Below are positions 20,955 through 57,796 of a DNA stretch of 64,000 bases, piece after piece. Position 1 is the first letter of the stretch. Every line of letters begins with the position of its first letter. Under the pieces are notes generated by a model. It saw only the letters and a program-made list of their open reading frames with translations, searched no databases and had not been told where the DNA came from. Source of the stretch: Paenibacillus sp. FJAT-29882 (GTDB lineage Bacteria; Bacillota; Bacilli; Bacillales; DSM-1321); assembly GCF_001510645.1 (NCBI RefSeq), contig NZ_LMVB01000002.1, forward strand, positions 124,001-188,000. Direction: 5' to 3'. The translations under genes were made by a program, and so were the position numbers.

Positions 20955-21222
20955 ATAAAGTGAAACTTCAATCAGTGGGGATTTTCCGTCCCCCCACTGA
21001 TTGTTAGTCCCGTTCTACTGTCGCTAAGATCGAAAGTACGAACTAAGGTAAGTTTCACTGTGTCTCACCAATCGGGCTTTTACTTCAAAAAGTGAGGCGA
21101 CTGCCCAGCCCTGACAGGCATAAGATGGAATACGGCGTGGCGTAGTTTGCCACAAAGTATTCCATCTTATGACCTCAGAGGGGCTAGGAGCCGCAACTAG
21201 ATTGGGCAGTTATGAGTGGTGG
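20955..21222. repeat. Family A structured repeat, long copy A1
   Basis: Starts AAATAAAGTGAAACTTCAATC. Nested inverted repeats: AAAGTGAAACTT against AAGTTTCACT; CAATCAGTGGGG against CCCCACTGATTG. It then has an extra domain at 21091-21210: CTGCCCA (21101-21107)/TGGGCAG (21203-21209), a perfect 15-bp stem 21119-21133/21157-21171, and an apical GTGGC/GCCAC (21137-21141/21149-21153). It abuts an IS1182 relic on the left and the purC terminator on the right. Confidence 0.85.
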
Positions 21223-21230
21223 GATCAAAA

Positions 21231-21281
21231 AAAACACCCCCTATCATAGTCCCATACAGGCGATCAAGATTGGGGTGTTTT
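21231..21281. terminator. Terminator of purC
   Basis: AAAACACCCC (21231-21240) pairs with GGGGTGTTTT (21272-21281), with A and T tracts on either side, 78 bp past the purC stop. Confidence 0.7.
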
Positions 21282-21358
21282 GATAACTCTGGTAGTAACG
21301 ATCAATTATCGATGGCAACCTTTTTCACCTTAGTGATAATCACGACCATAAGAATACT

Positions 21359-22051
21359 CTAGAGATTAACTTCCAACATCAATTTCTCTAATTCCAGCGG
21401 CTCGATATAGGTACCATTTTTATAAGCTCTCATGTTTCCTCCTGAGATTTCATCGATTAACGCGATTTGCTTATCTTCGCCGACTCTGCCAAATTCAAAT
21501 TTAATATCGTATAATTCGATATCTTTCTTCGCTAATTCTTCTTTTACAACGTTACCGATCTGTTTGGTAAGGTCTTTTAATACGGTATACTCCGCTTTTG
21601 TTAGGATACCTAGCATATCAAGTGCATCTTCGCTAATCGGCGGATCTTGGCGTTCATCATCTTTCAAAGTGACTTCTACAAATGCGTCTAATGGTTGCCC
21701 TTCTTCTGCATACATCCCATAGCGACGGAGAAAACTTCCAACTGTCTTGTAACGGCAGATTACTTCAAGCCCTTTGCCGAATACAGTTGCTGGCTTCACT
21801 GTCATCGTCGCTTCTTCAATATTAGCGTCTATATAATGTGTAGGAATCTCTTTTTCTTTTAGTATTTCAAAAAAGTACTTCGTTAAACTAAGACCTGCTC
21901 GACCCGCACCTTCAAGCGTTAAACCGACTGTATTGGCTCCTGGATCGAAGACACCATTTTCCCCTGTTACATCATCTTTAAATTTCAATAAATAATTTCC
22001 GTTTTCAAGGGCATAAACATCCTTCGTTTTCCCCGTATAAATCGACTTCAT
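21359..22051 (-). CDS. purC: Phosphoribosylaminoimidazole-succinocarboxamide synthase-like (SAICAR synthetase)
   Basis: 230 residues. N-terminal YTGKTKDVYALENGNYLLKF is the ATP-binding strand-loop of SAICAR synthetase; GSFLRRYGM, the DDERQDPPIS segment and the C-terminal IDEISGGNMRAYKNG follow the PurC pattern. The enzyme joins CAIR and aspartate in purine synthesis. It stands alone with its own promoter, away from other pur genes, so it may be a second, divergent PurC. A GGAGAGGG site precedes the ATG. Confidence 0.85.
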   Translation of the reverse strand: MKSIYTGKTKDVYALENGNYLLKFKDDVTGENGVFDPGANTVGLTLEGAGRAGLSLTKYFFEILKEKEIPTHYIDANIEEATMTVKPATVFGKGLEVICRYKTVGSFLRRYGMYAEEGQPLDAFVEVTLKDDERQDPPISEDALDMLGILTKAEYTVLKDLTKQIGNVVKEELAKKDIELYDIKFEFGRVGEDKQIALIDEISGGNMRAYKNGTYIEPLELEKLMLEVNL

Positions 22052-22092
22052 TAGAAAAACCCTCTCCTGTATATAATTGTTATATACTTATA

Positions 22093-22121
22093 ATAATATC
22101 TGCATTTTTCTGAAAAATCAA
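22093..22121 (-). promoter_or_regulatory. Promoter of purC
   Basis: Minus strand -35 TTGATT (22121-22116), 17-bp spacer, -10 TATTAT (22098-22093). No PurR box was evident. Confidence 0.65.
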
Positions 22122-22138
22122 TTTCTCTTTTATAAGAT

Positions 22139-22284
22139 TGTTCCAAAAGTCCGGTAAAATGATTGCGAATTGTGTCATCGATCTGTCTCTCGGTTCTCAC
22201 GTATAACTGCATATGTTCCGGTCCTCTCGAAATGCGCTCCTCGAACTTCTCGGCTCTTTTTATCCTCCTTTTTGAACACGTACT
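22139..22284. repeat. Family C MITE-like repeat, copy C1
   Basis: Begins TTGTTCCAAAAGTCCGG (from about 22138) and ends CTTTTTGAACACGTACT. GTTC(C)AAAA and TTTTTGAAC form terminal inverted repeats. The right block CTTCTCGGCTCTTTTATCC recurs in the copy at 53714. It ends against a broken GntR-like gene. Confidence 0.7.
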
Positions 22285-22467
22285 TTAAGAATAATTATTC
22301 CCTTCTTTTGTCTGCCTATTGATGATTCCTACTGTTTCTAAAGAACTTAACGCTTCCCGCAAAATAAGTCTAATAGTATATTTAAAAGACATTGGAAGAT
22401 TTCCAAGAAGGGGATGATTAAGAACCAACACCCCATCTGAACTCCTACGATCTTGTTGAAATTCCAC
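22285..22467 (-). pseudogene. GntR-family regulator fragment cut by a family C repeat
   Basis: A 60-codon minus-strand frame. Its central part, RLILREALSSLETVGIINRQ followed by TKEGNNY, matches the recognition helix and wing of GntR/FadR regulators (REALxxLExxGII...GxGxY). No effector domain follows: the frame stops exactly where repeat C1 begins, and the N-terminal part does not look like GntR. Probable remnant. Confidence 0.5.
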
Positions 22468-22603
22468 TAACGAATAAGAAACGTGATGATAATTGTAGAT
22501 AAATTTATTAAGCTACTAGCAGGATATTGCACACTCTTTCCATAAATAAGTAAAGTGGAGAAACACATGCCCTAACAAATAAGTGGAAAGGTGGTCGTTG
22601 TCT

Positions 22604-22789
22604 ATGAGTTCAGAAATAAACTTACAACAAATCGCCGAAAGTGTGACTAGATCCGTATTGAATGCATCCGACAAAGACTTGGAAGGCTTCCAAAAAATCA
22701 TTGAAGAAACAATTAAAGTAAGAGAAGGACATAAAAATCTACAGAAATTAGTGAAAAGCTATTCTACTTCTATGATTCAGCGTTCATAA
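22604..22789 (+). CDS. Small helical protein of unknown function
   Basis: 61 residues, predicted mostly helical and soluble, starting MSSEINLQQIAESVTRSVLN and with a basic C-terminus. An AAAGGTGGT site is 8 nt upstream of ATG 22604, and a strong terminator follows 10 bp after the stop. I recognise no family. Confidence 0.65.
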   Translation: MSSEINLQQIAESVTRSVLNASDKDLEGFQKIIEETIKVREGHKNLQKLVKSYSTSMIQRS

Positions 22790-22798
22790 ATGTCATAA

Positions 22799-22832
22799 GG
22801 CTGCACCCTTTTACATGGTGCAGCCATCCTTT
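22799..22832 (+). terminator. Terminator after the 61-residue gene
   Basis: GGCTGCACC (22799-22807) pairs perfectly with GGTGCAGCC (22817-22825), followed by ATCCTTTT. Confidence 0.9.
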
Positions 22833-22936
22833 TCCATTTCCATTTCATTGCTATTCGACAATTTCCAGATCTTGTACTGGCTTCATTTATATGAAACTCT
22901 TACACTAGAAGATACTCTAAAACAGACATTTTGTTT

Positions 22937-23494
22937 CTATCTTAGATTTAACTTGTTGATAAGTTGCTCTATCGTTATAACGGTAGCAAATTCTTCATGC
23001 AAAGTAGCAAGTGAAATAGTGTGGATTGTCTCTGCATCATAATATTGATCATTTTGATCCTTCATCCCAAATGTTGCTGTAGCGTCTGAAAGAAGATATG
23101 TATTAAACCCTAAATTGCCACTCATTCTTGTCGTTGTCGAGACACAATGGGTTGTCGTCAGACCTGTTATGACAACTGTACCGATCTCATTTGATCTTAG
23201 AAACTCTTCTAAATTGGTTCCGATAAACGCACTATTTACCTTCTTATTAGTTAGGACAATTTCATCTTCTAGTGGATTCACCAACTCTTTGATAAGAAAA
23301 CCATCATTTTTCGGATGAAAAAGAGAATGGTGAGAATCTGACAAATGTTGAATATGAATCACTTGCCATCCCTTGTTTCTCCAGAGCTTTAGTAGTTTAC
23401 TTATATTTTCCTCTGCATTTGGATTATTTCGTTTTCCCCATTTCTGATCATCAAAAGCATTTTGTACATCTATAATGATTAAAGCTTTCTTCAT
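22937..23494 (-). CDS. Isochorismatase-family cysteine hydrolase
   Basis: 185 residues, Rossmann-like hydrolase. The catalytic triad is readable as D9 (IIIDVQNAF), a Lys at 84-85 (TNKKVNSAF) and C117 (GLTTTHCVSTTTRM), with the cis-peptide GLTTTHC loop. Members hydrolyse nicotinamide, isochorismate or amides; the substrate here is unknown. The frame is open to 23506 but GGGTGG is best spaced to ATG 23494. Monocistronic. Confidence 0.9.
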   Translation of the reverse strand: MKKALIIIDVQNAFDDQKWGKRNNPNAEENISKLLKLWRNKGWQVIHIQHLSDSHHSLFHPKNDGFLIKELVNPLEDEIVLTNKKVNSAFIGTNLEEFLRSNEIGTVVITGLTTTHCVSTTTRMSGNLGFNTYLLSDATATFGMKDQNDQYYDAETIHTISLATLHEEFATVITIEQLINKLNLR

Positions 23495-23506
23495 GAACCA
23501 TCCCAC

Positions 23507-23938
23507 CCTAATTAATCACCTGTTCACAAAATAATTTAACAATTTCGAAGTCTTTTCACAAGAATAGAGTGTCAGTCTCCTTCAAATATTCGAATTATTA
23601 ATATTGACTGAAAGATTTCCGTTTTATTTTCATTACAGATCGTAATGTATTCCTTCTGGCACGTAAATCTCAATTCTGAATCGTAAGTCTTGATATGTGG
23701 TTCGGGTCTCCCGATTTTCGCTTAGACTTTATCTATATCAGTCGTAATCACAAGTAATCACCTAAAATAATTGGTAGAAAAAAGTAAAATCTATTCTTTC
23801 CGTTAAGTTGAATTTCCCATAAAACCCTCCCAATCATCATTAATATCTTTAGAATAATCAGCATTGTTTTTACGATTGAAAGTCCTTTCCGAATTTTCGT
23901 CAAATTACTGAAAAAGCTTGATAACTTCCACCATTCCA
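23507..23938. other. Intergenic stretch without a supported gene
   Basis: 430 bp between the hydrolase and the PTS promoter. AT-rich, with stops in all frames except short openings that lack ribosome binding sites. No copy of the repeat families was seen. Confidence 0.5.
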
Positions 23939-23967
23939 TTGAAAGCGTTTTTTTACATATATATAAT
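23939..23967 (+). promoter_or_regulatory. PTS operon promoter with overlapping cre site
   Basis: -35 TTGAAA (23939-23944), 17-bp spacer, -10 TATAAT (23962-23967). TGAAAGCGTTTTTT (23940-23953) matches the CcpA cre consensus TGWAANCGNTNWCA at 12 of 14 positions and overlaps the -35, so carbon catabolite repression of the operon is likely. Confidence 0.8.
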
Positions 23968-24029
23968 AAGCCCATAAGGGATACCTTACACATAAGACAA
24001 CATGATTCACACACAAGGAGGTAATAGTT

Positions 24030-25568
24030 TTGAAGAATGTTTTTGAGAAAGCCCAACAGTTTGGTAAATCATTTATGCTTCCGATTGCTGTCTTACCAGC
24101 TGCTGGCTTGCTGCTTGGTATTGGTGGAGCGCTATCGAATCCAAATACGGTTTCAGCTTATCCATTTTTAGATATTGCATGGCTTCAAGCCATATTTACC
24201 ATAATGAGCTCTGCGGGGAGTATCGTTTTTGGTAACTTACCGATTATTTTTGCAGTCGGTGTTGCAGTAGGCCTGGCCCGTTCGGATAAAGGGACAGCTG
24301 GTCTGGCTGCAATGATTGGGTATTTTGTTATGAACAGCTCAATCAATGCCCTACTCTCCATTACGGGGGATCTTGCTAAAGATAATTTAGCTGGTGCTGG
24401 CCAAGGAATGGCGGTTGGTATCCAAACATTAGAAACAGGTGTTTTCGGTGGGATTGTCATTGGGATTGTGGCGGCCTTATTACACAATAAATACAATAAG
24501 ATCCAGTTACCTCAAGTTTTAGGATTTTTCGGAGGCTCTCGTTTTATCCCGATCATTGTTTCTTTTACAGCGATTATCGTGGGGGCTGTTTTATTTATCG
24601 TTTGGCCTTATTTCCAACTTTTCATTAATCAATTAGGCTCATTAGTTACAAGCACAGGTACAATCGGAACATTTTTCTATGGCTTTATTCTTCGTATGCT
24701 TGGACCAATGGGATTACATCATATTTTCTACCTACCATTTTGGCAAACTGCTTTAGGTGGTACGATGGAAATTGGCGGGCATATTGTCAATGGGACGCAG
24801 AATATCTTCTTTGCCCAATTAGCTGACCCGAACACCGAACAATATTATGAAGGTGTATCAAGGTTTATGTCAGGTCGTTTTATTACGATGATGTTTGGTC
24901 TTCCAGGAGCAGCCCTTGCGATCTATCATTGCGCTAAACCAAAAAATAAAAAAGTCGTTGCAGGGATCCTTCTTTCAGCAGCTTTAACTTCTTTTTTAAC
25001 AGGAATCACAGAGCCTCTTGAATTTAGTTTCTTGTTTGTTGCTCCACTTCTCTATTTTGTTCATGCTCTGTTTGATGGGTTAGCCTTTATGATGGCTGAT
25101 ATCTTCAATATTACAATTGGACAAACTTTTTCTGGAGGGTTCATTGATTTTACATTATTTGGTATCCTTCAAGGTATGGCTAAAACAAATTGGATTTATG
25201 TATTACTAATCGGTATTCCTTGGTTCTTCTTATATTATTTCACATTTAAATTCCTTATTAAGAGAAAAAATTTCAAAGTTGTTGGACGTGAAGATGAGGA
25301 AGAGACTGTTGCACAACAAGTGACAGCTACTGATCGTGCCAAAACAATTGTCGAAGGATTAGGTGGAGCTACTAATATTGATGTAGTAGATTGCTGTGCA
25401 ACCAGACTTCGAGTAACTGTTAAAGATGACTCCTTGGTTAAGGATGATGTGATTAAACAAACCGGTTCAAAAGGGATTGTGAAAAAAGGCAATGGTATTC
25501 AAGTCGTATATGGTCCACAGGTTACCATTGTAAAAAACGAAGTAGAAGAGTATTTAGGACATGAATAA
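24030..25568 (+). CDS. PTS transporter subunit EIIBC, glucose/N-acetyl-sugar family
   Basis: 512 residues. EIIC (about 1-400) starts with KAQQFGKSFMLPIAVLPAAG, has GLHHIFYLPF and the sugar-site ITEPLEFSFLF motif. EIIB (about 430-512) carries the phosphorylated cysteine in DCCATRLRVTV. No EIIA domain is fused, so it must borrow one in trans. The start is TTG with AAGGAGG 8 nt upstream. With nanE downstream and an rpiR-type regulator, the likely substrate is N-acetylmannosamine or a related amino sugar (inference). Confidence 0.9.
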   Translation: MKNVFEKAQQFGKSFMLPIAVLPAAGLLLGIGGALSNPNTVSAYPFLDIAWLQAIFTIMSSAGSIVFGNLPIIFAVGVAVGLARSDKGTAGLAAMIGYFVMNSSINALLSITGDLAKDNLAGAGQGMAVGIQTLETGVFGGIVIGIVAALLHNKYNKIQLPQVLGFFGGSRFIPIIVSFTAIIVGAVLFIVWPYFQLFINQLGSLVTSTGTIGTFFYGFILRMLGPMGLHHIFYLPFWQTALGGTMEIGGHIVNGTQNIFFAQLADPNTEQYYEGVSRFMSGRFITMMFGLPGAALAIYHCAKPKNKKVVAGILLSAALTSFLTGITEPLEFSFLFVAPLLYFVHALFDGLAFMMADIFNITIGQTFSGGFIDFTLFGILQGMAKTNWIYVLLIGIPWFFLYYFTFKFLIKRKNFKVVGREDEEETVAQQVTATDRAKTIVEGLGGATNIDVVDCCATRLRVTVKDDSLVKDDVIKQTGSKGIVKKGNGIQVVYGPQVTIVKNEVEEYLGHE

Positions 25569-25595
25569 ATCATTTTGAACAAGGGAGTGTATAAA

Positions 25596-26285
25596 ATGCA
25601 ATCAGTATTAGATCAAATCACTAAAGGATTAATTGTATCTTGTCAGGCTTTAGAAGGTGAGCCTTTACACAGCTCCCACATCATGGGGCGCATGGCTGTT
25701 GCAGCAAAAGAAGGCGGTGCTAAGGGAATTCGTGCAAACTCGGTCGCTGACGTTTTAGAGATCAAGAAGCAAGTAGACCTTCCAGTAATCGGAATCATCA
25801 AGCAAGTGTATGGAGATAATCCTGTTTTTATCACTCCTACTATAAAAGAGATTGATGCATTAATGACAACGGGTGCTGAGATTATTGCCACTGATGCAAC
25901 AGCGCGCATAAGACCTGATGGAAGCACATTAGATCAATTTTATCATGAGGTACGGTCTAAATATCCTCAGGCGATTCTAATGGCAGACGTCTCAACAGTA
26001 GAAGAAGCCATTCATGCTGATCAACTAGGATTTGATATCGTTGCTCCAACATTATATGGCTATACAGCTGAGACACAAGGATTGAAGATTGATTTCAATA
26101 ATTACGCGGTCATTAAACAAATCGTAGAAGTAGTAAAGCATGCGAAAGTTCTTGCGGAAGGAAACGTTTCTACACCAGAAATTGCCCGTTCCGTATTAGA
26201 TATCAATGTTCATGCAGTAGTAGTAGGTGGAGCCATTACACGCCCACAGCAAATTACCAAACGATTTGTTGACGCTTTGCTCTAG
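25596..26285 (+). CDS. nanE: N-acetylmannosamine-6-phosphate 2-epimerase
   Basis: 229 residues, TIM barrel. Motifs include GLIVSCQALEGEPLH at the N-terminus, GGAKGIRANS, IIKQVYGD, ATDATARIRPDG and AEGNVSTPEIA plus VVVGGAITRP at the phosphate-binding end. Converts ManNAc-6-P to GlcNAc-6-P. The frame opens at 25575, but that stretch is the AAGGGAG ribosome binding site; ATG 25596 is the start. It lies 27 bp after the PTS gene, in one operon. Confidence 0.95.
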   Translation: MQSVLDQITKGLIVSCQALEGEPLHSSHIMGRMAVAAKEGGAKGIRANSVADVLEIKKQVDLPVIGIIKQVYGDNPVFITPTIKEIDALMTTGAEIIATDATARIRPDGSTLDQFYHEVRSKYPQAILMADVSTVEEAIHADQLGFDIVAPTLYGYTAETQGLKIDFNNYAVIKQIVEVVKHAKVLAEGNVSTPEIARSVLDINVHAVVVGGAITRPQQITKRFVDALL

Positions 26286-26359
26286 TCGTTTTTTTAGATT
26301 AAATTTCGACTTCTGTTAAATAATATCTTTTAATAAAACAATTTTTACAAAATCTAAGC

Positions 26360-26405
26360 TATACTAAAAATGACTCGGGCTGATGCTTGAGTCATTTTTA
26401 GTATA
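26360..26405 (+). terminator. Terminator of the PTS-nanE transcript
   Basis: A perfect 17-bp inverted repeat, TATACTAAAAATGACTC (26360-26376) and GAGTCATTTTTAGTATA (26389-26405), with a 12-nt loop. The T tract is inside the 3' arm, so it may also act as an operator. Confidence 0.75.
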
Positions 26406-26496
26406 GATCGGAACACTCATCTATAATGGACAAGCAAAAAGGTTATCCTATATGATAAAAATAGCAGTAAAAATCCCCCACAAATAGGTGAACAAC

Positions 26497-27339
26497 ATGG
26501 AATATTTAGGTGAAAACCTCTTGCATGGAATTGAGTGCAGTATGGACAAATTTACAAACACAGAAATAGAACTTGCTCGATATATTATTGAACATCCTGA
26601 TGAAATCAGCCATATATCTAGTAGCCAAATTGCAAAGAAAATGCATATTTCACCAGCGACCATTACTCGTTTTTGTCAAAAATTATCTTTTTCAGGATTC
26701 AATGAGTTTAAGCATGAATTAAAAAGATATGTGGATCTCAGAGATAAACCGAGCACGTCGAATACGATTAAGCAAATGGATTATTTTGCCCAACTATATC
26801 AAAATCACTTGGATATTATTGAAAATACCTTTAAAAAAGTCACATATTCTGACATTCAACAAGCCGTCTTCCTTCTTACTCACGCAAATAAAATCCATGT
26901 ATATGGCATTGGTAACTCTGGAATTGCTGCCCTGGAATTTAAATCAAAGTTTTTTCGAATTGGATTAAATGTTGAAACCATTACCGATCCACATCAAGCT
27001 GTGATGGACGCAGCACTATGCACAGAAAAGAGTGTTGTGATTGGAATATCTGTCACTGGCAGGACGAAAGAAATCATTCGTCCTATAAGCATTGCGAAGG
27101 AACAAGGAGCTGCCATTTTGGTTTTTACCGGTGAAAAAGACTCTGAGCTATCACAGCTAGCTGACCTAACTCTACTCGCCATGAATAAAAGCAATATGCA
27201 TATGGGACAGAATATTTCGCCATCCTTGCCACTCTTTTTACTGTTTGATTTAATCTATACCGAGCTTATCGCAAAGGATTATAAAAATAGAATTCACTTT
27301 CGAGAAAAAACATTAAAGGCGTTATACGATAATTATTAA
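26497..27339 (+). CDS. RpiR-family (MurR/RpiR-type) transcriptional regulator
   Basis: 280 residues. The N-terminal helix-turn-helix (about 1-75) reads IAKKMHISPATITRFCQKLSF. The C-terminal SIS sugar-phosphate-binding domain (about 120-260) reads IHVYGIGNSGIAALEFKSKF and VVIGISVTGRTKEI. This class senses amino-sugar phosphates, fitting control of the preceding PTS-nanE genes. AGGTGA 6 nt before ATG 26497 selects this start over the GTG at 26488. Confidence 0.9.
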   Translation: MEYLGENLLHGIECSMDKFTNTEIELARYIIEHPDEISHISSSQIAKKMHISPATITRFCQKLSFSGFNEFKHELKRYVDLRDKPSTSNTIKQMDYFAQLYQNHLDIIENTFKKVTYSDIQQAVFLLTHANKIHVYGIGNSGIAALEFKSKFFRIGLNVETITDPHQAVMDAALCTEKSVVIGISVTGRTKEIIRPISIAKEQGAAILVFTGEKDSELSQLADLTLLAMNKSNMHMGQNISPSLPLFLLFDLIYTELIAKDYKNRIHFREKTLKALYDNY

Positions 27340-27389
27340 TCAAAATTATGTATCAGTTTGTATCTCTTTTACCACTATGTTTCTCGTAC

Positions 27390-27485
27390 ATAAAGTGAAA
27401 CTTCAATCAGTGGGGGATTCTTCATCCCCCACCTACGCTTCTTCGATTCCTCTTAAGCCTTTGAGGTGGGGGTTTCACTTTATCT
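27390..27485. repeat. Family A repeat, short copy A2
   Basis: TAAAGTGAAACTTCAATCAG joins directly to the right-end hairpin CCCCCACCT...AGGTGGGGG (with GCTT/AAGC inside), then TTTCACTTTATCTGATTG. The central part of the long copies is deleted. From 27486 to 27717 no gene is seen; a minus-strand reading LLLGLCLILGSFPLILF at about 27540-27600 might be a transporter relic but is unproven. Confidence 0.75.
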
Positions 27486-27717
27486 GATTGAATGGACCAT
27501 ACAATTAGTCCAGCAATGTTGTCTTACGTATTAGCTACTTCAGCCAATGGTCTTCTAAAAAGTATCAATGGAAATGAACCTAAGATTAAACATAAACCAA
27601 GAAGAAGAGTCATATTTTAATATAGGTTACATGTAGGAGATTAGCAGTTTAAAAAGGTCCCTCATATTATCCCCTTATACCTTTGCCACCTTATTCCTTG
27701 GAAAGGAGATTATTATT

Positions 27718-38682: not shown

Positions 38683-39090
38683 AAATAAAGTGAAACTTCG
38701 ATCAGTGGAGGGGCTTCATCCCCCACTGATTATTAGTCCCGTTCTAGTGTCGCTAAATCTTCGATAAAGCGATACTACGAACCCGATTCAATCACAGACT
38801 AAACAACGTCTGTGTGACCCACATCCTGTGACTTTTGAAGACCACAAAGGTAAGTTTCACTGTATCTCACCAATCGGGCTTTTTCATAAAAAAGTGAGGC
38901 GACTGCCCAGCCCCGACAAGCATAAGATGGAATACGGCGTGGCGTAGTTTGCCACAGAGTATTACAGCTTATGACCTCAGACAGGCTAGGAGCCGCAACT
39001 AGATTGGGCAGTTGTCCCCCACCTACGCTTCTTCGATTCCTCTAAGCCTGGAGGTGGGGTCTTGACTTTCCGTTAATGCGGAATAAACGA
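38683..39090. repeat. Family A structured repeat, longest copy A3
   Basis: About 400 bp. It contains the outer GTGAAACTT/AAGTTTCAC pair, ATCAGTGG/CCACTGAT, TAGTGTCGCT/AGCGATACTA, CACAGAC/GTCTGTG, then the ACCCGATT/AATCGGG pairing. The inner structured domain (38895-39014) follows, then the right-end hairpin CCCCCACCT...AGGTGGGG, and the tail CCGTTAATGCGGAATAAA. The 15-bp inner stem of A1 is present with two mismatches. It splits the ATPase gene from the rest of the ABC operon. Confidence 0.85.
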
Positions 39091-40583: not shown

Positions 40584-40640
40584 CATAAAGTGGAACTTCA
40601 ATCAGCGTGGGAGATTACTCCCGTTAATGCGGAATAAATA
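40584..40640. repeat. Family A repeat, minimal copy A4
   Basis: ATAAAGTGGAACTTCAATCAG is joined almost directly to the tail CCCGTTAATGCGGAATAAA; everything between is deleted. It shows the two termini of the family. Confidence 0.7.
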
Positions 40641-40682: not shown

Positions 40683-41029
40683 TTTATATTCTTGTGATCA
40701 CCAAAGAGGTCGTCCAAAGGGAGAGAATATCTTAAAGAGAAAATGACGTTTCTTCGTACGCACTAAGCGTCCCCTTAGACTGAAACACACCATGATCAGA
40801 AGGTAGTGCTTTATTAAGATAGCATTTACATCATGAATGTCATCTTCAATATCCCCTTCTTCCATTGCTCGACTAGTTTCTTAAACGAATGTAGTTCTTG
40901 TGGTTACATTCTTCGTTCAGCCTTTGATCTGATAAAAATTATTACATTACATAAAACATTCCCTTCCTTTCATAAATTAAATTATGTTAAAATAACGTTC
41001 ACACTAAAATAAAGTGCTATTTTTCAGAT
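40683..41029. other. Intergenic stretch, possible relic
   Basis: About 345 bp. On the minus strand a 56-codon frame starts at about 40861 (MEEGDIEDDIHDVN...), and an overlapping frame reads ALPSDHGVFQSKGTLSAYEE. The two frames look like one ancestral coding sequence with a shift, but I cannot name the family and there is no ribosome binding site. Confidence 0.3.
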
Positions 41030-41204
41030 AAAGTGAAACTACGAACCCGATTGGTTCAACTAAACCTCTGCTTACGCATCGGTAAGTTTCACTTTATCTC
41101 ACCTATCGGGGCTTTACAGGCTGTTTATCCCCCACCTATTTTCCTTGATTTTCTCACTAAAATGGAATTGGGGGTATTACAGCCTGTTAAACCGGGGTAA
41201 ATTG
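41030..41204. repeat. Family A repeat, medium copy A5
   Basis: AAAGTGAAACTACGAACCCG with AAGTTTCACTTT closing the outer stem, ACCCGATTGG against CCTATCGGG, and a stem ACAGGCTGT (about 41118-41126) / ACAGCCTGT. That last stem replaces the CTGCCCA/TGGGCAG of the long copies, so pairing is kept while sequence changed. Its right end reaches into the leader of the DUF969 gene. Confidence 0.75.
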
Positions 41205-47251: not shown

Positions 47252-47447
47252 TGATAAAATGAAACTTCAATCAGTGGGATTTTCTTATCCCTACTGATTG
47301 TTAGTCCGGTTCTACTAAACCGCTAAAGATCACCGCGGTAAGTTTCACTTTATCTCACCAATCGGGCTTTTATGGGTAGTTATCCCCACTGATCCTTCTA
47401 AGACTAAGGGGGGTACTGCCCGTTAATGCGGGATAAATGAGGAGGAA
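47252..47447. repeat. Family A repeat, medium copy A6
   Basis: AAATGAAACTTCAATCAGTGG, ACTGATTG, ACCGCTAAAGATCACCGCGGT, AAGTTTCACTTT, CCAATCGGGC, TGGGTAGT against ACTGCCCG, a reduced right hairpin and the tail CCCGTTAATGCGGGATAAA. The tail runs straight into the ribosome binding site of the following 40-residue gene. Confidence 0.8.
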
Positions 47448-49910: not shown

Positions 49911-49951
49911 TGTGTTCAATGCGATGAAAAAACTTTTCGGGGGTGCTTGTG

Positions 49952-50545: not shown

Positions 50546-50578
50546 ATATGTTAAGAATTCGGATGATGCCTTGCATAT

Positions 50579-50912: not shown

Positions 50913-51000
50913 CTTAAGATAAAGAATAACGCTATGGCTTTTATCAAACTTTTTTTCAAAAGCTACACCTGATTCCTGTAATTCCTAAAGTACAAAAAAA

Positions 51001-51042
51001 GCCAGCCCAGTAGGTTAGTTGTCTGACCTATGGGCTGGCTTC
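51001..51042 (-). terminator. Terminator of the lipase gene
   Basis: AAGCCAGCCCAGTAGGT pairs with ACCTATGGGCTGGCTT (one mismatch, 10-nt loop); on the minus strand the stem is followed by TTTTTTT. It is about 85 bp past the lipase stop. Confidence 0.85.
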
Positions 51043-51125
51043 AATTATTATCATTCTAGTAAAGAATTAGACAGGCTGTGATTAGTATTGTTGAAAAAAA
51101 CTACGTTCAAGATAAGAATCTTTGC

Positions 51126-51764
51126 TTAATTTGTATTTTTCCCTCCGCCATTCAATCCTTCTTGAATCAGCTCGTAGACTTCACTGTTGATAAGCATTCC
51201 AACGTGGTCTACACCGCTGATTTGAACGTTATTCGCTCCCTGAAGTGTTGAAAGCCAAGTGGGTACAACAAAGTCGTTGGTGCTATAAATCGAAGTATAA
51301 CGGATTTTATGGTTAGGATCTGTACCTACGGGAGCTTTCGATGTTACATATTTGTTTGGAGAACCCAACGTTACCACATCGTTTACCTTGCTTCCACCAT
51401 CATTGAGAATATAAGTCAGGGTATTCAAGCCTCCCGCACTGTGTCCAATAATATCAACCTTGCTCTTTCCTGTTTTCTTTAACACTTCATCTACATAAGA
51501 AGCAAGCTGTTTTTGATTATTCAAACTAACACCAGACTTATTCACTAATTCAATAGCATACAGTTCATCATCGGACCAGCCTTGTTTTTTCAAGTAATTT
51601 TTTATGCCATAAAAGGCTGTGCTGTTTCCACCTGCACCGTGAATAAATATAACTGGATCATGACCGTTTGTCTGTGCTTTAGAAACAGAAGGCTGACAAG
51701 TAACCACAGAAAGAATAATAGCCATGCATGCCATTAGTGAAAGTAGCAATCTCTTATTTCTCAT
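51126..51764 (-). CDS. Secreted triacylglycerol lipase, LipA/EstA type
   Basis: 212 residues with a Sec signal peptide (basic MRNKR, hydrophobic core to about residue 21, cleavage near SKA-QT). The minimal alpha/beta hydrolase of the Bacillus subtilis LipA family: oxyanion loop HGAGGNS, S109 in GHSAGG, D164 in STNDFVV, H187 in GVDHVGM, and the family ending EGLNGGGKNTN. It cleaves short to medium chain esters outside the cell. The nucleophile elbow GHSAG differs from the AHSMG of LipA. Confidence 0.93.
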   Translation of the reverse strand: MRNKRLLLSLMACMAIILSVVTCQPSVSKAQTNGHDPVIFIHGAGGNSTAFYGIKNYLKKQGWSDDELYAIELVNKSGVSLNNQKQLASYVDEVLKKTGKSKVDIIGHSAGGLNTLTYILNDGGSKVNDVVTLGSPNKYVTSKAPVGTDPNHKIRYTSIYSTNDFVVPTWLSTLQGANNVQISGVDHVGMLINSEVYELIQEGLNGGGKNTN

Positions 51765-51938
51765 AATTCCCCTCCTATTTGTTTAACTGCTTTCTTGCTA
51801 CGTTAAGTGTTATACATTTTGGAGGGAGAAACAACCGGAAACTTTTTCTATCCCTGGTTACAGTGCTTAAGCAGTTGGCCAATTCAGCAAAAGAAAAATG
51901 GCTATTTTTCTTTTGAATCGTACCTTCCTTACATCCTT

Positions 51939-52544
51939 CTAATATCCTAATCGATAAATTAAAAATTTCTCATAAGGATTATGCGCATAGTCTGGCAGGA
52001 TGACTTCTTCTTTTAATTCAAATGACATTTGGTTCTCTAAAAAATAAAGATAATCATCTGACGGATAATACAAAATCAGCTCGATTTCCCGTTTGAACTC
52101 TTCTACAGATAACAAAATATTATTAATAACCTGCATAAAAATTTGGATCGAAAATGGATTAAAAAAATAAAAATGATTATCTAACGGATTAATCTGGTAT
52201 TTCTCTGCTAAAGAGCAGTGAAAATGGATTTTATCTGTTCTGTTTTTTGCCTTCTTCAAATATCTAGTTCGATTTTCAATCGCTTCTTTACAAAATCCTT
52301 CGTTCATTTCAATCCCAATAACAGTCGCCTGAAATAAATGATGGATATAGAAATTTAACCGTCCTTTTCCACAGCCAAAATCGACAACACGATCACTACT
52401 TTTCAATTCATATGTATTAAATAATGTTTCGAGTGCATAATATGGAGTTGGCTCATAACGATGATAATGCATAGAATTATTGAATCCCTTTTGGTCACCT
52501 ACTGTTTTTATGTTTAGTAACGCATCGTAATACTGTTCATTCAT
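51939..52544 (-). CDS. Class I SAM-dependent methyltransferase
   Basis: 201 residues. Motif I VVDFGCGKGRLNFYI (about 53-67) and the acidic VIGIEMNEGFC strand follow the Rossmann methyltransferase pattern, with NPFSIQIF as motif IV-like. The target (small molecule, RNA or protein) is unknown. The N-terminus MHYHRYEPTPYYALETLF is shared by similar Bacillus proteins. Monocistronic. Confidence 0.85.
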   Translation of the reverse strand: MNEQYYDALLNIKTVGDQKGFNNSMHYHRYEPTPYYALETLFNTYELKSSDRVVDFGCGKGRLNFYIHHLFQATVIGIEMNEGFCKEAIENRTRYLKKAKNRTDKIHFHCSLAEKYQINPLDNHFYFFNPFSIQIFMQVINNILLSVEEFKREIELILYYPSDDYLYFLENQMSFELKEEVILPDYAHNPYEKFLIYRLGY

Positions 52545-52800
52545 GGGTTTTCTCCTCGATTTAAAACTTTATTCTTTAATCATATAGCTTTTTCTATATG
52601 AATACCATTCGACTTTTTTACCTGAACACGCATAGATATCGCTAATCTATGTTTTATTCAATTCGAATCAATTTTAGACATCTACGATTTGATTAGTACG
52701 TTCTCTTACTTTTCTAAGGGAATTTTAAGGTTATTCTTCTTTTACTTTAAACTCGAGCCGTTATGATACTAATATAAACAAAACGAGGAGGTTATCAAGA

Positions 52801-53115
52801 ATGAACTTGATGCCAATGCTATTAACAGGTGCTTTAATCGTAGGTGGTCTAGGAGCTCATGCAATGATTGATAACCACCCAACAACGAAATTATCAAATG
52901 CACCTTCACAAACGATAAATGAATTACAAGCAAAGACGATTGCCTTAGACACATCTCAAGGTGGTCTAGTAACGAACACTCATACCATTGAAGATCATGG
53001 CATTAAAAAATACGAAATTTCTATTATGAATCGAAATACAGAATATGATGTGGATATTGATGCATCATCTGGAGACATTTTGAATGTTGACATGACCAAG
53101 ATGTTAAATAGGTAA
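52801..53115 (+). CDS. PepSY-domain small exported protein
   Basis: 104 residues. An N-terminal hydrophobic segment (about 1-22, LTGALIVGGLGAHA) acts as signal or anchor. The C-terminal about 50 residues (IEDHGIKKYEISIMNRNTEY, then DVDIDASSGDILNVD) fit the PepSY fold, common in secreted inhibitors of peptidases. GAGGAGG precedes the ATG. It is separated from the DUF5342 gene by 83 bp. Confidence 0.75.
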   Translation: MNLMPMLLTGALIVGGLGAHAMIDNHPTTKLSNAPSQTINELQAKTIALDTSQGGLVTNTHTIEDHGIKKYEISIMNRNTEYDVDIDASSGDILNVDMTKMLNR

Positions 53116-53198
53116 CTTACACCTTATCATTCCTAGCGCATTGTTTTTAGCAAGGTCCATTCTAATCCAAAAAAGTAAAAATTTCAGGAGGTTTTATC

Positions 53199-53663
53199 AT
53201 GGTTCAAGAGTTTAAAGTAAAACGTTTGTTTGAAAATCAAGTTCATGAACGTCAGCAGTTTTCACTAAACTTTAAAAGTTATACTTATCAAGGGATTTTC
53301 CATGAGGGAGACATTCAGTGGTTTCATCCTCAACCTAATACTAGGCTTGTTGAAGAGGATCTCCAAGTTCTAGAATCCACTGTGTTTGAATTGATGAGAA
53401 AACACGCATATCAAGGGTTTACAGTAAAACCATTGTTCGAGGATCAAGTTCATGAGCGTCAGCAGTTTACATTAAACTTTGAAGGCGATCATTATCATGG
53501 GATTTTCCACGATGAAGAAATTCAGTGGTTCCACCCTCAACCTAACAATAATCTTTCCGAAGACGACCTTCAAGATTTGGAATCTAAAGTATATGACTTG
53601 ATGAAAAACCACGCATATCAAGATTTTGCAATAAAACCATTGTTTGAAGATCAAGTTCTTTAA
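53199..53663 (+). CDS. DUF5342 protein with two tandem domains and a truncated third
   Basis: 154 residues. Unit 1 (about 5-72) and unit 2 (about 73-141) each read F-x-V-K-x-L-F-E-x-QVHERQQF-x-LNF, then GIFH and IQWFHPQPN, then a helix ending HAYQ. A third copy begins FAIKPLFEDQV and stops after 12 residues. Single-unit DUF5342 proteins are about 70 residues, so this is an internal duplication. GGAGG before the ATG. Function unknown. Confidence 0.8.
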   Translation: MVQEFKVKRLFENQVHERQQFSLNFKSYTYQGIFHEGDIQWFHPQPNTRLVEEDLQVLESTVFELMRKHAYQGFTVKPLFEDQVHERQQFTLNFEGDHYHGIFHDEEIQWFHPQPNNNLSEDDLQDLESKVYDLMKNHAYQDFAIKPLFEDQVL

Positions 53664-53713
53664 TGGTTGCTTACAGTCAAACATAATAACCCCGTATTGG
53701 TTTCGATAGGAAG

Positions 53714-53815
53714 TTGTTCAAAAATTCCGATCCTTACTTACGTATTACTGCATACGTGAAAGGTTTGAGGTATGAGCTTCTCGGCTCTTTTAGCCTTCTT
53801 TTTGAACACGTACTA
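53714..53815. repeat. Family C MITE-like repeat, copy C2
   Basis: TTGTTCAAAAATTCCG at the left and CTTTTTGAACACGTACT at the right, with GTTCAAAAA/TTTTTGAAC as terminal inverted repeats and the shared block CTTCTCGGCTCTTTTAGCC. About 40 bp shorter than C1 through an internal deletion. Confidence 0.7.
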
Positions 53816-53943
53816 TAGAGCATTCTGGTGCGGGGAATCTCAATCCCAGTAAACGAAAGCGATTTCAAAAAATAGTTTAAAAGTATCGACAATTCGATGT
53901 GAAGCCGTATAATATGAAGTATCACTTCTTTAGGAGGATTACA

Positions 53944-54936
53944 ATGGTTTATAAAGCGGAAGATACTCGATACGATGAAATGCAATACAATAGAAGCGGG
54001 CGATCTGGCCTACAGCTTCCAGCGATTTCACTTGGTTTATGGCATAATTTTGGTGGAGTAGATACATACGAAAATGGCCGCGCCATGCTAAGAAGTGCTT
54101 TTGATTTAGGGATCACCCATTTTGACCTTGCAAACAACTATGGTCCACCTGCTGGATCCGCGGAAGAAATGTTCGGGAAAATGTTAAAAACGGATTTTGC
54201 TCCTTATAGAGATGAAATGATCATTTCATCGAAGGCTGGTTATTATATGTGGCCAGGCCCATACGGTGAATGGGGATCAAAGAAGTATCTGGTCGCAAGT
54301 TTAGATCAAAGTTTAAAGCGGATGGGACTGGATTATGTCGATATTTTCTACTCACATCGTCCTGATCCAAACACGCCTTTAGAAGAAACGATGGGTGCGT
54401 TAGACTCAATCGTTCGCCAAGGGAAAGCTTTATATGTAGGCATTTCCAGTTATACTGCGAAACAAACAGAAGAAGCGATTAAAATTCTAAATCGGTTAGG
54501 CACTCCACTTGTCATTCATCAACCTAGCTATTCCATGTTGAATCGCTGGATTGAGGATGGCCTGCAAGATGTATTACAAGAAAATGGTGTTGGATCGATC
54601 GCTTTCTGTCCTTTAGCACAAGGCCTTTTAACAAATAAATATCTAAATGGCATTCCGACTGATTCCAGAGCTGCTAAATCTACTGGTGCATTAGGAACAG
54701 ATCAAGTGAGTGAAGAAGTTGTAAATCGTGTAATAAAATTAAATCAAGTGGCAGCTGAACGCGGTCAAAACCTGGCGCAAATGGCACTTGCTTGGGTACT
54801 AAGAGATGGAAAGGTTACTTCAGCTTTAATCGGCGCAAGTCGAGTAAGTCAAATCGAAGAAAATGTTGCTGCATTAAATAATCTTTCATTCACTCAAGAA
54901 GAGCTTGATAGAATTGAAGATATCTTAAAAAGTTAA
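53944..54936 (+). CDS. Aldo/keto reductase, YghZ (glyceraldehyde-3-phosphate reductase) type
   Basis: 330 residues, TIM barrel with the AKR tetrad D61, Y66, K97 and H138 (FDLANNYG, SSKAGY, YSHRPDP). NADPH-binding residues cluster in GASRVSQIEEN near 300. The start MVYKAEDTRYDEMQYNRSG and the length follow the YghZ/Mgr group, which reduces methylglyoxal and L-glyceraldehyde-3-phosphate. GGAGG selects ATG 53944 over an opening 45 bp upstream. Confidence 0.9.
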   Translation: MVYKAEDTRYDEMQYNRSGRSGLQLPAISLGLWHNFGGVDTYENGRAMLRSAFDLGITHFDLANNYGPPAGSAEEMFGKMLKTDFAPYRDEMIISSKAGYYMWPGPYGEWGSKKYLVASLDQSLKRMGLDYVDIFYSHRPDPNTPLEETMGALDSIVRQGKALYVGISSYTAKQTEEAIKILNRLGTPLVIHQPSYSMLNRWIEDGLQDVLQENGVGSIAFCPLAQGLLTNKYLNGIPTDSRAAKSTGALGTDQVSEEVVNRVIKLNQVAAERGQNLAQMALAWVLRDGKVTSALIGASRVSQIEENVAALNNLSFTQEELDRIEDILKS

Positions 54937-55016
54937 TGATTGGAAGAACCTGCCTAACGAGTAGTATGTAGCTAAATGGTGCAATTTCTTTTGCCACAAC
55001 AGGTTTATACCCAACT

Positions 55017-55056
55017 AAAAAGCCGGATTTCCCCTATTTGCGGAAACCCGGCTTTT
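55017..55056. terminator. Bidirectional terminator between aldo/keto reductase and bdhA
   Basis: AAAAAGCCGGATTTCC pairs with GGAAACCCGGCTTTTT, between convergent genes. Confidence 0.9.
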
Positions 55057-55059
55057 TAG

Positions 55060-56109
55060 TTATTCAGCTTTTACTAAGATTTTTACTTGATTTCTTTCTT
55101 TTAGCAAGCCTTCAAAACCTTCGTCAATCACTTCATCAAGTTTGATACGCTTTGTTACTAGTTTATCCGCTGGGAAGTATCCTTTGGCCATTAAACTAAT
55201 AACAGCTGGAAATACATCGCGGTATCCGATAATACCTGTTACAGTGCGTTCTTTCAAAACGATATTTTGTGGGTGGATAGAAGCTTCTTTTTCAAAAATA
55301 CTTACAATCATCGTTTCCCCATTAATTTTTGTTGAGTTGATGGCTTGTACTAAGACTGGCGGTACCCCTGTCACTTCATAAGCAACATCTACCCCGCCAT
55401 TTGTAAGTATATGAAGTTGTTCGACAACATCGCCTTGACTCGGATCAATTGCGATAGCTCCAAGCTCTTCTGCTTTTTCTCGGCGTTGTTCAGATAGTTC
55501 AATCGCATAAATTTCTGATGCACCCGCTGCTTTTAGTGCTTCAATAACGAGTAAACCGATTGGACCAGTACCGAACACAGCGGCCTTTTCGCCGACTTGT
55601 AGTTTACTTTGTTTTACAGCATGAAGAGCAACAGCTGACGGTTCGACAAGTGCTCCTTGCTCATATGAAACAGTTTCTGGAAGTTTATGTAACATATGTT
55701 CTGGAACCGAAGTGAATTCAGAAAATCCACCACCGCCTCCTGAAAGGCCGTAGAAGCCCATTTTGTCACATAGATTGTATTTCCCTTGTTTACAAGCAGC
55801 ACATTCGCCACAAGAATAGATCGGCTCAACAGTCACACGATCGCCAACTTGTACTTTAGTTACTCCTTCACCAATTTCAACAACTTGTCCAGAAAATTCA
55901 TGCCCAAGAACAATAGGAGCTTTATCCCCACTTAATGGATGTGGTGCTTCGGCTGGAATAAAAATTGGGCCTGCTGTATATTCGTGTAAATCACTTCCAC
56001 AAATTCCACACCACTCAACTTTAATTTTTGCCTCACCTTTTCTTGCCTTTGGCTCTTCAATATTGTCAATTCTCAAATCTTTAGCCTCATACCATCTCAA
56101 TGCTTTCAT
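55060..56109 (-). CDS. bdhA: (R,R)-2,3-butanediol dehydrogenase
   Basis: 349 residues, zinc-containing MDR family. Catalytic zinc ligands are in WCGICGSDLHEY and GHEFSG; structural zinc cysteines in CGECAACKQGKYNLC; the NAD loop is GTGPIGLLVIEALKAAGA. Sequence follows Bacillus BdhA closely (GPIFIPAEAPHPL, GIIGYRDVFPAV), which interconverts acetoin and 2,3-butanediol. AAGGGG is 9 nt before ATG 56109, so that is preferred to the ATG directly abutting the site. Confidence 0.94.
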   Translation of the reverse strand: MKALRWYEAKDLRIDNIEEPKARKGEAKIKVEWCGICGSDLHEYTAGPIFIPAEAPHPLSGDKAPIVLGHEFSGQVVEIGEGVTKVQVGDRVTVEPIYSCGECAACKQGKYNLCDKMGFYGLSGGGGGFSEFTSVPEHMLHKLPETVSYEQGALVEPSAVALHAVKQSKLQVGEKAAVFGTGPIGLLVIEALKAAGASEIYAIELSEQRREKAEELGAIAIDPSQGDVVEQLHILTNGGVDVAYEVTGVPPVLVQAINSTKINGETMIVSIFEKEASIHPQNIVLKERTVTGIIGYRDVFPAVISLMAKGYFPADKLVTKRIKLDEVIDEGFEGLLKERNQVKILVKAE

Positions 56110-56151
56110 ACTACTCATCCCCTTATATATTTCGGAATATTTTAATTTATA

Positions 56152-57282
56152 TTACAATATCATTATACTGCCCTTATAAATATTTACAATTGGGTTCTCT
56201 TCCCTCTTTTTGAAAACTATGTGAACTTTTTCACTAGGCATCCAAGAGTTATTTCCACTTAGCCAACACCCTTTAGATAAAGCGTCTTTGGGAGCAAGTG
56301 CCCCTTTGACAAGGTCTACTCCACCGATTGTCAAATAGTTCACGAAGTCTGAAAAGGAGTCTGTTGCGTGATTAGCCCGATCATTTAGTCCGTCATAAAA
56401 AGATTTTCCTGAATCTAAACCACCCATGGACAACCAATTACCAAAATCGTAGACAGAATCAAATTTATCCTTGTTCCGTTTGGTTATCCCATCCCAAATA
56501 TCTTCGCCGATCTCTTTCACACTATTAAACGATTTCACAAATGGATTTTCAATTTTATTTTCTTTCTTCTCTTTTTTTACAGGGCGCTCACAAGCTTTGA
56601 TTTCCATAGATAGGACACTCGGATCCAGCAGACTTCTCGCTGGAAAAGCTTCATTTATAACTTCTGATAACTGACCCTTCTGATACTCGCCTATACTAAG
56701 TGTTCCCGTTTGGAACATCGACTGTATGCGTTGAATATAGCTCTTCATGTTCTGTTCATCTTGTTCGAGTTGCACTAGGGCAGCAGTTTGTTGCTGGTCG
56801 AAGGTATTAAGCTTTTCAACAGTTTGATTCCTATGGCTTTGTGCCTGTATAAACTCTCCATCGTCGAGTCTTGGGAGTGAAACGATATCCTTCACTGAAT
56901 TCATGACAGCATTTGCTTCATTTGTTAACTCAATCGTGTTTTCTTTAGTACGTTGCAGCCCTTGTTCTAGCTCATTTTCTAGAACGCTTTGCCGAATCAA
57001 ACCATTTGATGCAGGTTCCAGGGAGTACAGGTTACTTTTCATGGTTTTCAGAGTGTTTTGGTAATGAGTGAAAAACTCCTGCGAGAATGCTAGGAAAGGC
57101 TCGTGGCTTTCCTGATAATAGGAACGGATTGCTTGCCCGCCCTCTCCTTTAAGCGAATCGTCTAGAGCTATCAATCCTTTTACATCATTCTCTACTTGTT
57201 TCATTTGTTCCTGTAAGCCTATCAATTTTTCAATTGTAGCATCGATTCCCTTATGTAATGCCTCTACATCTAATACTTTCAT
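56152..57282 (-). CDS. LXG-domain (T7SS-type) protein with lost toxin domain
   Basis: 376 residues. The N-terminal about 200 residues form the helical LXG domain (MKVLDVEALHKGIDATIEKL) that targets polymorphic toxins to the type VII/Esx secretion system. A linker then runs to GALAPKDALSKG at about 335. At this point complete LXG proteins continue into a toxin domain, but this one ends after about 38 unrelated basic residues and abuts bdhA. No immunity gene is next to it, so it is probably a toxin whose 3' end was replaced. Confidence 0.75.
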   Translation of the reverse strand: MKVLDVEALHKGIDATIEKLIGLQEQMKQVENDVKGLIALDDSLKGEGGQAIRSYYQESHEPFLAFSQEFFTHYQNTLKTMKSNLYSLEPASNGLIRQSVLENELEQGLQRTKENTIELTNEANAVMNSVKDIVSLPRLDDGEFIQAQSHRNQTVEKLNTFDQQQTAALVQLEQDEQNMKSYIQRIQSMFQTGTLSIGEYQKGQLSEVINEAFPARSLLDPSVLSMEIKACERPVKKEKKENKIENPFVKSFNSVKEIGEDIWDGITKRNKDKFDSVYDFGNWLSMGGLDSGKSFYDGLNDRANHATDSFSDFVNYLTIGGVDLVKGALAPKDALSKGCWLSGNNSWMPSEKVHIVFKKREENPIVNIYKGSIMIL

Positions 57283-57413
57283 TATAGTCTGCCTCCTCTT
57301 ATCCTTTCAAACACGGACGCTGGTAAGGAGGTTTTCTTTGTTCCCAAAATGATGATCAAGCTCCCTTCTCTTTCCCCTAATATTACCTTTAATTATATCT
57401 AATCCGTAATTTT

Positions 57414-57602
57414 ATGGTAAATAGGCGAAAAAGAGATGAACAGGAAAAACCAGTAAGATATTTCACCTATTCTTGGCATTATGCATATGGGGCGGATTTC
57501 AAACATACTAAAGCACAAATAATCAACTATCATTTTTATGTAATTGATCGGATCGGTTTTTGGCATGCGAAATTGGGTACACCGCCAACTAACGGTGATT
57601 GA
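57414..57602 (+). CDS. Doubtful 62-residue protein
   Basis: Basic N-terminus (MVNRRKRDEQEKP), then an aromatic-rich body (RYFTYSWHYAYGADFKHTK and YHFYVIDRIGFWHAK). There is no ribosome binding site at the ATG and no known family. The composition is unlike random sequence, so it may be a remnant; a link to the adjacent LXG gene, such as former immunity protein, cannot be shown. Confidence 0.3.
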   Translation: MVNRRKRDEQEKPVRYFTYSWHYAYGADFKHTKAQIINYHFYVIDRIGFWHAKLGTPPTNGD

Positions 57603-57635
57603 TAAAATTCTATAATTATTTGTATCTCCTTGACC

Positions 57636-57796
57636 ACAAAGTGAAACTTCAATCAGTGGGAGTTTTCTCCATCCCTCACTGATTGTTAGTTGAACCAATC
57701 GGGCTTTTACGGGCAAGTTATTCCCCACCTACACTTCATCGATTCCTCTAAGCCTTGAGGTGGGGGTTTTACTGCCGGTTAATGCGGGATAAAAAT
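57636..57796. repeat. Family A repeat, medium copy A7
   Basis: AAAGTGAAACTTCAATCAGTGG with CCCTCACTGATTG, TTGAACCAATCGGGC, the right hairpin CCCCACCT...AGGTGGGGG with AAGC, and the tail CCGGTTAATGCGGGATAAA. Lacks the inner structured domain. Confidence 0.8.

Follow-up and report, generated by a model that had tools for sequence, protein, structure and literature searches.

Family A, a mobile two-hairpin repeat of Bacilli oriented with respect to replication

The window analysed here, a stretch of 64,000 nucleotides of the Paenibacillus sp. FJAT-29882 genome (contig NZ_LMVB01000002.1, positions 124,001 to 188,000), harbours seven copies of a structured repeat, designated family A, which is a mobile element. 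All seven lie in the orientation adopted in the first-pass annotation of this DNA, which is referred to as the plus strand throughout. A search with the 22-mer of the left end, allowing up to three mismatches, returned six matches in the window (at 20957, 27392, 38687, 40587, 47256 and 57638) compared with none in 100 dinucleotide shuffles, and the seventh copy, with a divergent hairpin 1, was recovered by a profile hidden Markov model (HMM) built from canonical copies (profile limits 41029-41201). The seven copies of the first-pass annotation are thus confirmed, with coordinates that were correct within 2 bases.

The modules described in that annotation are real, as the repeat finder independently returned the left ends, the closing AAGTTTCACTTTAT/ACCAATCGGGC block, the CCCCCACCT hairpin and the CCCGTTAATGCGGGATAAA tail; not every copy contains all of them. 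As judged by eye, the closing block is absent from copies 4 and 7, the ACCCGATT partner is present in copies 3 and 5 only, the CCCCCACCT-type hairpin is missing from copies 1 and 4, and the CCCGTTAATGCGGG tail from copies 1 and 2, the latter of which terminates with an inverted left end. Similarly, the modularity and the size range (57 to about 400 bp with loss of modules) held in outline, the measured lengths being 54 bp (copy 4) to 403 bp (copy 3). The features of the window are listed in Table 1.

Table 1. Family A copies, their parts and neighbouring features in the 64-kb window
Feature	Position	Strand	Description	Basis
Copy 1	20955..21229	+	Hairpin 1 intact; block with inverted left end; internal module of 170 nt; decay of right end (GGGATCAAA)	Right end by eye
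Copy 2	27390..27483	+	Hairpin 1 arm joined onto CCCCCACCT hairpin; inverted left end GTTTCACTTTAT at end	Right end by eye
Copy 3	38685..39087	+	403-bp full-length composite with additional nested modules	22-mer, repeat finder, single-stranded DNA fold
Copy 4	40585..40638	+	54-bp solo copy, left end fused to right end	22-mer match
Copy 5	41028..41201	+	ACCCGATTGGTTCAAC...GTAAGTTTCACTTTAT in place of hairpin 1; hairpin 2 stem ACAGGCTGT/ACAGCCTGT; DUF969 gene directly downstream	Profile HMM
Copy 6	47254..47437	+	Complete; orthologous site of Peribacillus loiseleuriae empty, with a single ATAAA	
Copy 7	57636..57793	+	Canonical 158-nt element	22-mer, profile HMM
Hairpin 1 of copy 7	57650..57685	+	GTTA at 3' foot, i.e. 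TAAC at 5' foot on the minus strand	Limits by eye
Hairpin 2 of copy 7	57710..57778	+	Outer GGGCA-type stem, inner CCCCACCT/AGGTGGGG stem, GTTA at 3' foot	Limits by eye
Left pentamer of copy 7	57636..57640	+	ACAAA here; usually ATAAA (minus strand TTTAT)	
Right pentamer of copy 7	57789..57793	+	ATAAA (minus strand TTTAT)	
LXG-domain protein	56155..57282	-	Adjoins copy 7	Pfam PF04740
Tandem repeat	53204..53617		Two direct tandem 207-nt copies, 79% alike, within open reading frame 53199-53663	
PreQ1 riboswitch	60444..60487	-	Exceeds gathering score	Rfam RF00522

The commonest unit is about 158 nt long and is organized as ATAAA-GTGAAACTTC-(hairpin 1, CAATCAGTGGGGG...CCCCCACTGATTG)-TTAGTTGAAC-cAATCGGGC-TTTTA-(hairpin 2)-TTAAtgCGGG-ATAAA, with hairpin 2 consisting of CGGGCAG...inner CCCACTT/AAGTGGG...CTGCCCG. 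The hairpins are subterminal, one near each end, and the ends themselves (GTGAAACTTC and CCCGCATTAACGG, compared by eye) differ and form no terminal inverted repeats. Units arranged in tandem have one ATAAA in common, e.g. at locus L042. To the eye, the 108-nt and 50-54-nt variants seem to have lost the DNA between direct repeats (GTGGGGG or CCCCCAC), and the larger copies look like the outcome of insertions of inverted left halves or foreign hairpin modules; solo copies of 50-52 nt are present in other genera too. Extra hairpins CCCACAGGATGTGGG...GCCACAGGACGTGGC, found in large copies (loci L104 and L114, and copy 3 of the window), apparently represent a separate hairpin module common to several genera.

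Comparative analysis of 35 chosen aligned sequences, one of them from the window, revealed that the pairing of the two hairpins is conserved across genera: 96.2% of 1041 cells pair and 16 of the 30 hairpin pairs have changed on both sides, values reached by none of 500 shuffles, and sliding of the partner lowers the pairing to 34-47%. The earlier observation that stems change on both sides together is therefore well founded. Moreover, hairpin 2 differs as a whole from lineage to lineage (GGGCAG/CTGCCC, TGGCTG/CAGCCA, CGTCCGT/ACGGACG). In the same alignment the 3' foot carries GTTA in 31/35 sequences for hairpin 1 and likewise in 31/35 for hairpin 2 (the remaining 4 having GTTG or GTTC), so that in the minus-strand view both hairpins have TAAC at the 5' foot. 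Folded as single-stranded DNA (ssDNA), a canonical copy of Sporosarcina (locus L121) yields a z of about -8 on each strand and copy 3 of the window a z of -6.9; the canonical copy 7 folds only moderately below its shuffles (z -2.3, with 8/200 shuffles equally good).

The distribution of family A is broad. The exact left-end 22-mer was found at no fewer than 111 loci, under at least 53 species labels and at least 22 genus names, and the covariance model R1, with a maximum of 7 candidates scored per genome, was positive in 53 of the 398 sampled genomes of Bacilli, representing 30 of 146 genera. The copy load amounts to 77 places per 1.25 Mb examined in the source genome and 62 per 1.6 Mb in P. 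loiseleuriae; in these 2.85 Mb, 135 of the 139 places lie outside open reading frames (ORFs) predicted by a simple longest-ORF script or within 20 nt of an ORF edge. Most of the distant relatives read (a set of 13 copies and a set of 8 loci) retain ATAAAG as left end and CGGGATAAA as the other end, together with ATCGG and a GTT(A) following each hairpin. Rfam gave no match on the element, either across the whole window at gathering scores or at 17 loci with E up to 1, and the search of phages returned no element match. The plasmid search with a 406-nt copy gave no match, the canonical copy was found in five plasmid records (four of bacilli and one labelled Klebsiella grimontii), and another copy matched seven records at E up to 10; no plasmid of the B. 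cereus group was among the matches, in a collection that may or may not contain such records. In the case of record CP079755.1 (221561-221624), labelled K. grimontii, the partial element match may reflect contamination, mislabelling or transfer.

The mobility of family A was established by 69 syntenic comparisons of the source genome with its close relative P. loiseleuriae, the identity of which rests on three named loci that match exactly. A cut-off of at most 4 mismatches over 20 flank bases left 23 rows, from which two non-empty sites and one mis-registered site were dropped by eye (row 393343, with a wrong right register in the automatic scan and clean in separate comparisons, was counted); at up to 6 mismatches the scan gave 44 rows, false ones included, and hence all counts refer to the 20 rows retained at the stricter threshold. 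At each of these 20 clean empty sites, as read by eye, a single ATAAA-like pentamer takes the place of the two present at the occupied site, and it is for this reason that family A is considered a mobile element. The empty-site pentamer is ATAAA in 13 of the 20 and departs from it by one or two bases in the other 7 (GTAAA twice, ATTAA, ATAGA, ATCAA, ATAGG and CTAAA). Clean empty sites in related strains, through which the first-pass annotation had proposed to define the ends, were thus found, including that of copy 6 of the window, where ...CTTGATAAACGAGG... of P. loiseleuriae corresponds to ...CTTGATAAA/ATGAAAC...GCGGG/ATAAATGAGG... of the window. Copies 2 and 7 have no clean counterpart, their flanks having diverged, and the stretches surrounding copies 1, 3, 4 and 5 are largely missing from P. 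loiseleuriae.

The seven sites with a variant target are the most informative as to the origin of the pentamers, since a 5-bp duplication would look identical wherever the target and the carried end are both ATAAA. At these sites ATAAA is found on the left in 6 and on the right in 3; the right pentamer equals the target in 2, the left in 1, and both in none, which speaks against a mere duplication and suggests that the element brings one pentamer with it. Most likely, the left ATAAA is part of the element and the right pentamer represents the target.

The orientation of family A was compared with the direction of replication, read from GC skew and gene direction where plain in the stretches of the two genomes, with places common to both counted once per genome. 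At 93 of the 139 places (p 8e-5) the plus strand runs opposite to the leading strand, as it does in 50 of the 66 copies of at least 100 nt (p 3e-5). In agreement with this, among the matches listed for seed loci across genera, 65/93 are opposite where the absolute GC skew exceeds 0.04 and 46/71 by gene direction, and the majority orientation per species is opposite in 33 and with the leading strand in 10, with 4 ties (p 6e-4). The ratio of opposite to co-oriented copies is 31:9 between convergent or divergent genes, 9:1 at genes running against the fork and 53:36 at genes running with it (p 0.09); as the bias holds in the first two contexts, gene direction does not account for it. Compared with the flanking genes, the element is oriented almost as expected from background (both genes opposite, 0.40 vs 0.30; both in the same direction, 0.32 vs 0.35). 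Intergenic ATAAA is distributed evenly or slightly in reverse between leading and lagging strands (716:718 and 2973:2765), hence the supply of targets is not the cause of the bias either. According to PMC5371812, the orientation of IS200/IS605 elements recapitulates replication through the use of the lagging-strand template. The replication-linked orientation of family A suggests the same for this element, whose complementary (minus) strand would move as ssDNA while on the lagging-strand template.

With moderate confidence, family A is interpreted as a non-autonomous element that moves as ssDNA out of and into the lagging-strand template. The moving strand would be the minus strand, TTTAT/CCCGCAT-TAAC-(hairpin 2)-linker-TAAC-(hairpin 1)-GAAGTTTCAC-TTTAT/, to which the orientation, the polarity of the pentamers (with exceptions) and the TAAC tags all point. 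Its two subterminal hairpins would be bound in trans by an IS200/IS605-type (HUH) nuclease acting on ssDNA hairpins, which would cut after TTTAT at both ends (slashes); the element might then be released as a circle and pasted beside a TTTAT on the lagging-strand template. IS200/IS605 transposases bind subterminal hairpins, and where they cleave is determined by tetranucleotides: the guides immediately 5' of the hairpin feet, that of the target, which flanks the left end, and the one that concludes the right end (PMC6006769). The TAAC tags sit at about the place of these guides and may be regarded as candidate guides. Hence family A appears to work like an IS200/IS605 passenger; membership in that family is not claimed, because neither a cognate Y1 transposase nor an autonomous copy was found. 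Of the IS200/IS605-like nature proposed in the first-pass annotation, mobility with empty sites, subterminal hairpins, the lack of terminal inverted repeats, a fixed pentamer and the replication-linked orientation were borne out, but not a Y1 transposase for these ends.

The search for the mobilising enzyme in the source genome led to a single Y1 match, a RAYT-like gene (locus L142, 1330-2090, contig C15) flanked by unrelated GGGGTCAGACCCC palindromes, and no family A end was found at this locus. Repeats of the window near 5723, 7896, 35842 and 43565 (GGGTCTGAC...) may be the repetitive extragenic palindrome (REP) family matching this gene. Considered as autonomous partners, the Y1/TnpB loci of the source genome were rejected, six of the seven having no family A end and the remaining one (L147) only a short solo copy. 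This copy (235-288, contig C1) lies about 1.2 kb from the TnpB match, probably by chance at the observed copy density. A partial test, in which four of the seven queries (L142, L143, L145 and L148) had the correct frame, placed TnpB/Y1 homologues near seed elements at one locus (L108) among at least 111, and the ends of two IS200-like Y1 loci that were read are not common with those of family A. The transposase recognising the same end hairpins, for which the first-pass annotation had suggested looking, was consequently not found in the source genome, in eight long end-to-end intervals or at the two IS200-like loci. At E 0.001, Y1 matches were obtained in 43 of 54 genomes with the element and in 13 of 20 tested from among the 345 without it, which makes Y1 a poor predictor of family A. 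The mobilising enzyme is either gained and lost, or it is a non-Y1 protein or a Y1 protein that escapes this search. A broader proposal, that family A belongs to a widespread Bacillales superfamily of passenger ssDNA transposons, possibly including bcr1, which an unrecognised and perhaps host-encoded or non-Y1 hairpin-ssDNA nuclease moves at the lagging strand, is put forward tentatively, as the less probable extension.

Several observations weigh against ssDNA transposition on the lagging-strand template. Apart from the failure to find a Y1 gene with family A ends or an autonomous copy, the longest ORF of the eight end-to-end intervals (1.4-3.9 kb) was never transposase-like, as judged by reading with no family search made, and 11 of the 54 element-bearing genomes gave no Y1 match at E 0.001, four of these with at least 7 element copies; it is the latter four that suggest a non-Y1 mobiliser. 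The orientation bias is weak in copies shorter than 100 nt (43/73 opposite, p 0.16) and in the 36 copies, decayed pieces included, whose site seems empty in the other genome (20:16), and a replication bias may also arise in other transposase classes via the beta-clamp (PMC5371812). The 54-bp solo copies are without both hairpins, and the G of GTTA may pair at the hairpin foot (C15-G54 in 34/35), which makes the position of the tag loose. As to the pentamers, at site 515338 it is the left one that equals the target, which runs counter to the polarity proposed here, and two of the 13 sites with an ATAAA target (545613 and 3772469) have a left pentamer other than ATAAA. Finally, the G.T:A.C wobble ratio of hairpin 1 is 22:17 in 69 unselected copies, 8:3 in 14 copies of the class search and 12:6 in 83 non-exact seed-locus copies, i.e. 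near even or leaning to the plus strand; hairpin 2 gives 5:3 in the class set. An initial count was biased, the loci having been picked by an exact match of the 5' arm (hairpin 1, 37:11) or anchored on the right arm (hairpin 2, 18:40), and the hairpin 2 counts of the source-genome and seed sets, which equalled background, were discarded.

One alternative is site-specific recombination of double-stranded DNA, with a tyrosine or serine recombinase integrating a circular element at TTTAT through a TTTAT crossover. Such a mechanism has been suggested for bcr elements, and TTTAT-linked recombination has been proposed for BCR repeats (PMC6542083). It would likewise turn the one pentamer of the empty site into two after insertion, and the mixed left and right inheritance of non-consensus pentamers is compatible with heteroduplex resolution; nevertheless, neither the replication-linked orientation nor two covarying end hairpins is predicted by this mechanism, which is judged rather unlikely. 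Still less probable is a classical miniature inverted-repeat transposable element (MITE) mobilised by a DDE transposase that would duplicate the 5-bp ATAAA target, with beta-clamp targeting as the source of the orientation bias. The same 5-bp sequence does stand mostly on both sides of the element (left ATAAA in 112/132, right in 71/92, a tally that does not tell the two ends apart), and a replication bias is reported for other IS families (PMC5371812), but the ends GTGAAACTTC and CCCGCATTAACGG, compared by eye with no IS library searched, are not inverted repeats, and at none of the seven non-ATAAA sites do both sides equal the target.

Movement in trans by a RAYT, that of L142 included, with family A as a large REPIN-like repeat, deserves about as little credence: the source genome does have one RAYT-like Y1 gene, and the inverted left ends within big copies resemble REPINs, yet this gene has palindromes of its own and no family A end, and the element is tracked by Y1 weakly at best (43/54 positive versus 13/20 negative genomes). 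A structured regulatory or non-coding RNA that is repeated incidentally seems very improbable. Strong covariation, the low folding energy of one canonical copy whichever strand is folded (z about -8) and wobble counts slightly in favour of G.T on the plus strand would suit such an RNA, and about half of the B. cereus bcr1-bcr18 copies are reported to be transcribed, mostly within mRNAs (PMC3446304). On the other hand, the insertions are polymorphic, no Rfam match lies on the element, the orientation relative to flanking genes is near background, and the replication bias is strongest where genes are neutral to the fork or against it. The RNA-only element considered in the first-pass annotation is accordingly poorly supported, given the lack of an Rfam match and the mild relation to gene direction; the wobble counts quoted above do not decide the matter.

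Among known systems, family A resembles, by description, the bcr1 or group A repeats (bcr1-bcr3) in its size, intergenic setting, secondary structure and TTTAT at insertion. The size of bcr1 is given as 147 and 167 bp (PMC2267715), and bcr repeats are described as intergenic and MITE-like, with complex secondary structure and a TTTAT motif linked to mobility (PMC6542083, PMC3446304, PMC8725734). PMC8725734 presents them as specific to the B. cereus group, whereas family A spans many genera and families of Bacilli; common descent of the two, compared by descriptions only, is a guess. No title or abstract was found on family A outside the B. cereus group or on a replication bias of bcr1, subscription papers being mostly beyond reach, and a literature search with the repeat's own sequence retrieved no paper. 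With the REP, BIME and REPIN sequences associated with RAYTs, family A has in common many intergenic palindromic copies, tandem arrays and inverted pairs; it differs in its unit of about 158 nt, the lack of a GTAG or GTGG tag, the other palindromes flanking the RAYT-like gene of the source genome, and a sequence conserved across genera, REPs being described as species-specific (PMC6006769).

The likeness to IS200/IS605 elements and their gene-less derivatives (PATEs) comprises subterminal hairpins, unlike ends, a fixed short target, orientation with respect to replication and, as a candidate guide, one tetranucleotide common to both hairpin feet. Family A differs in that its hairpin 2 is long and nested (about 69 nt, compared with the usual 20-25 nt or so; PMC6006769) and in that no cognate Y1 TnpA was found. 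It is a non-autonomous mobile repeat, probably transposed as ssDNA. In the accessible literature the movement of bcr1-type repeats is only suggested, and to this family A adds end hairpins that covary, empty sites at 20 places and an orientation tied to replication across genera. Taken together, these data yield a specific mechanism that can be put to the test, peel-and-paste on the lagging strand at TTTAT, as well as a well-defined substrate with which the missing enzyme can be sought.

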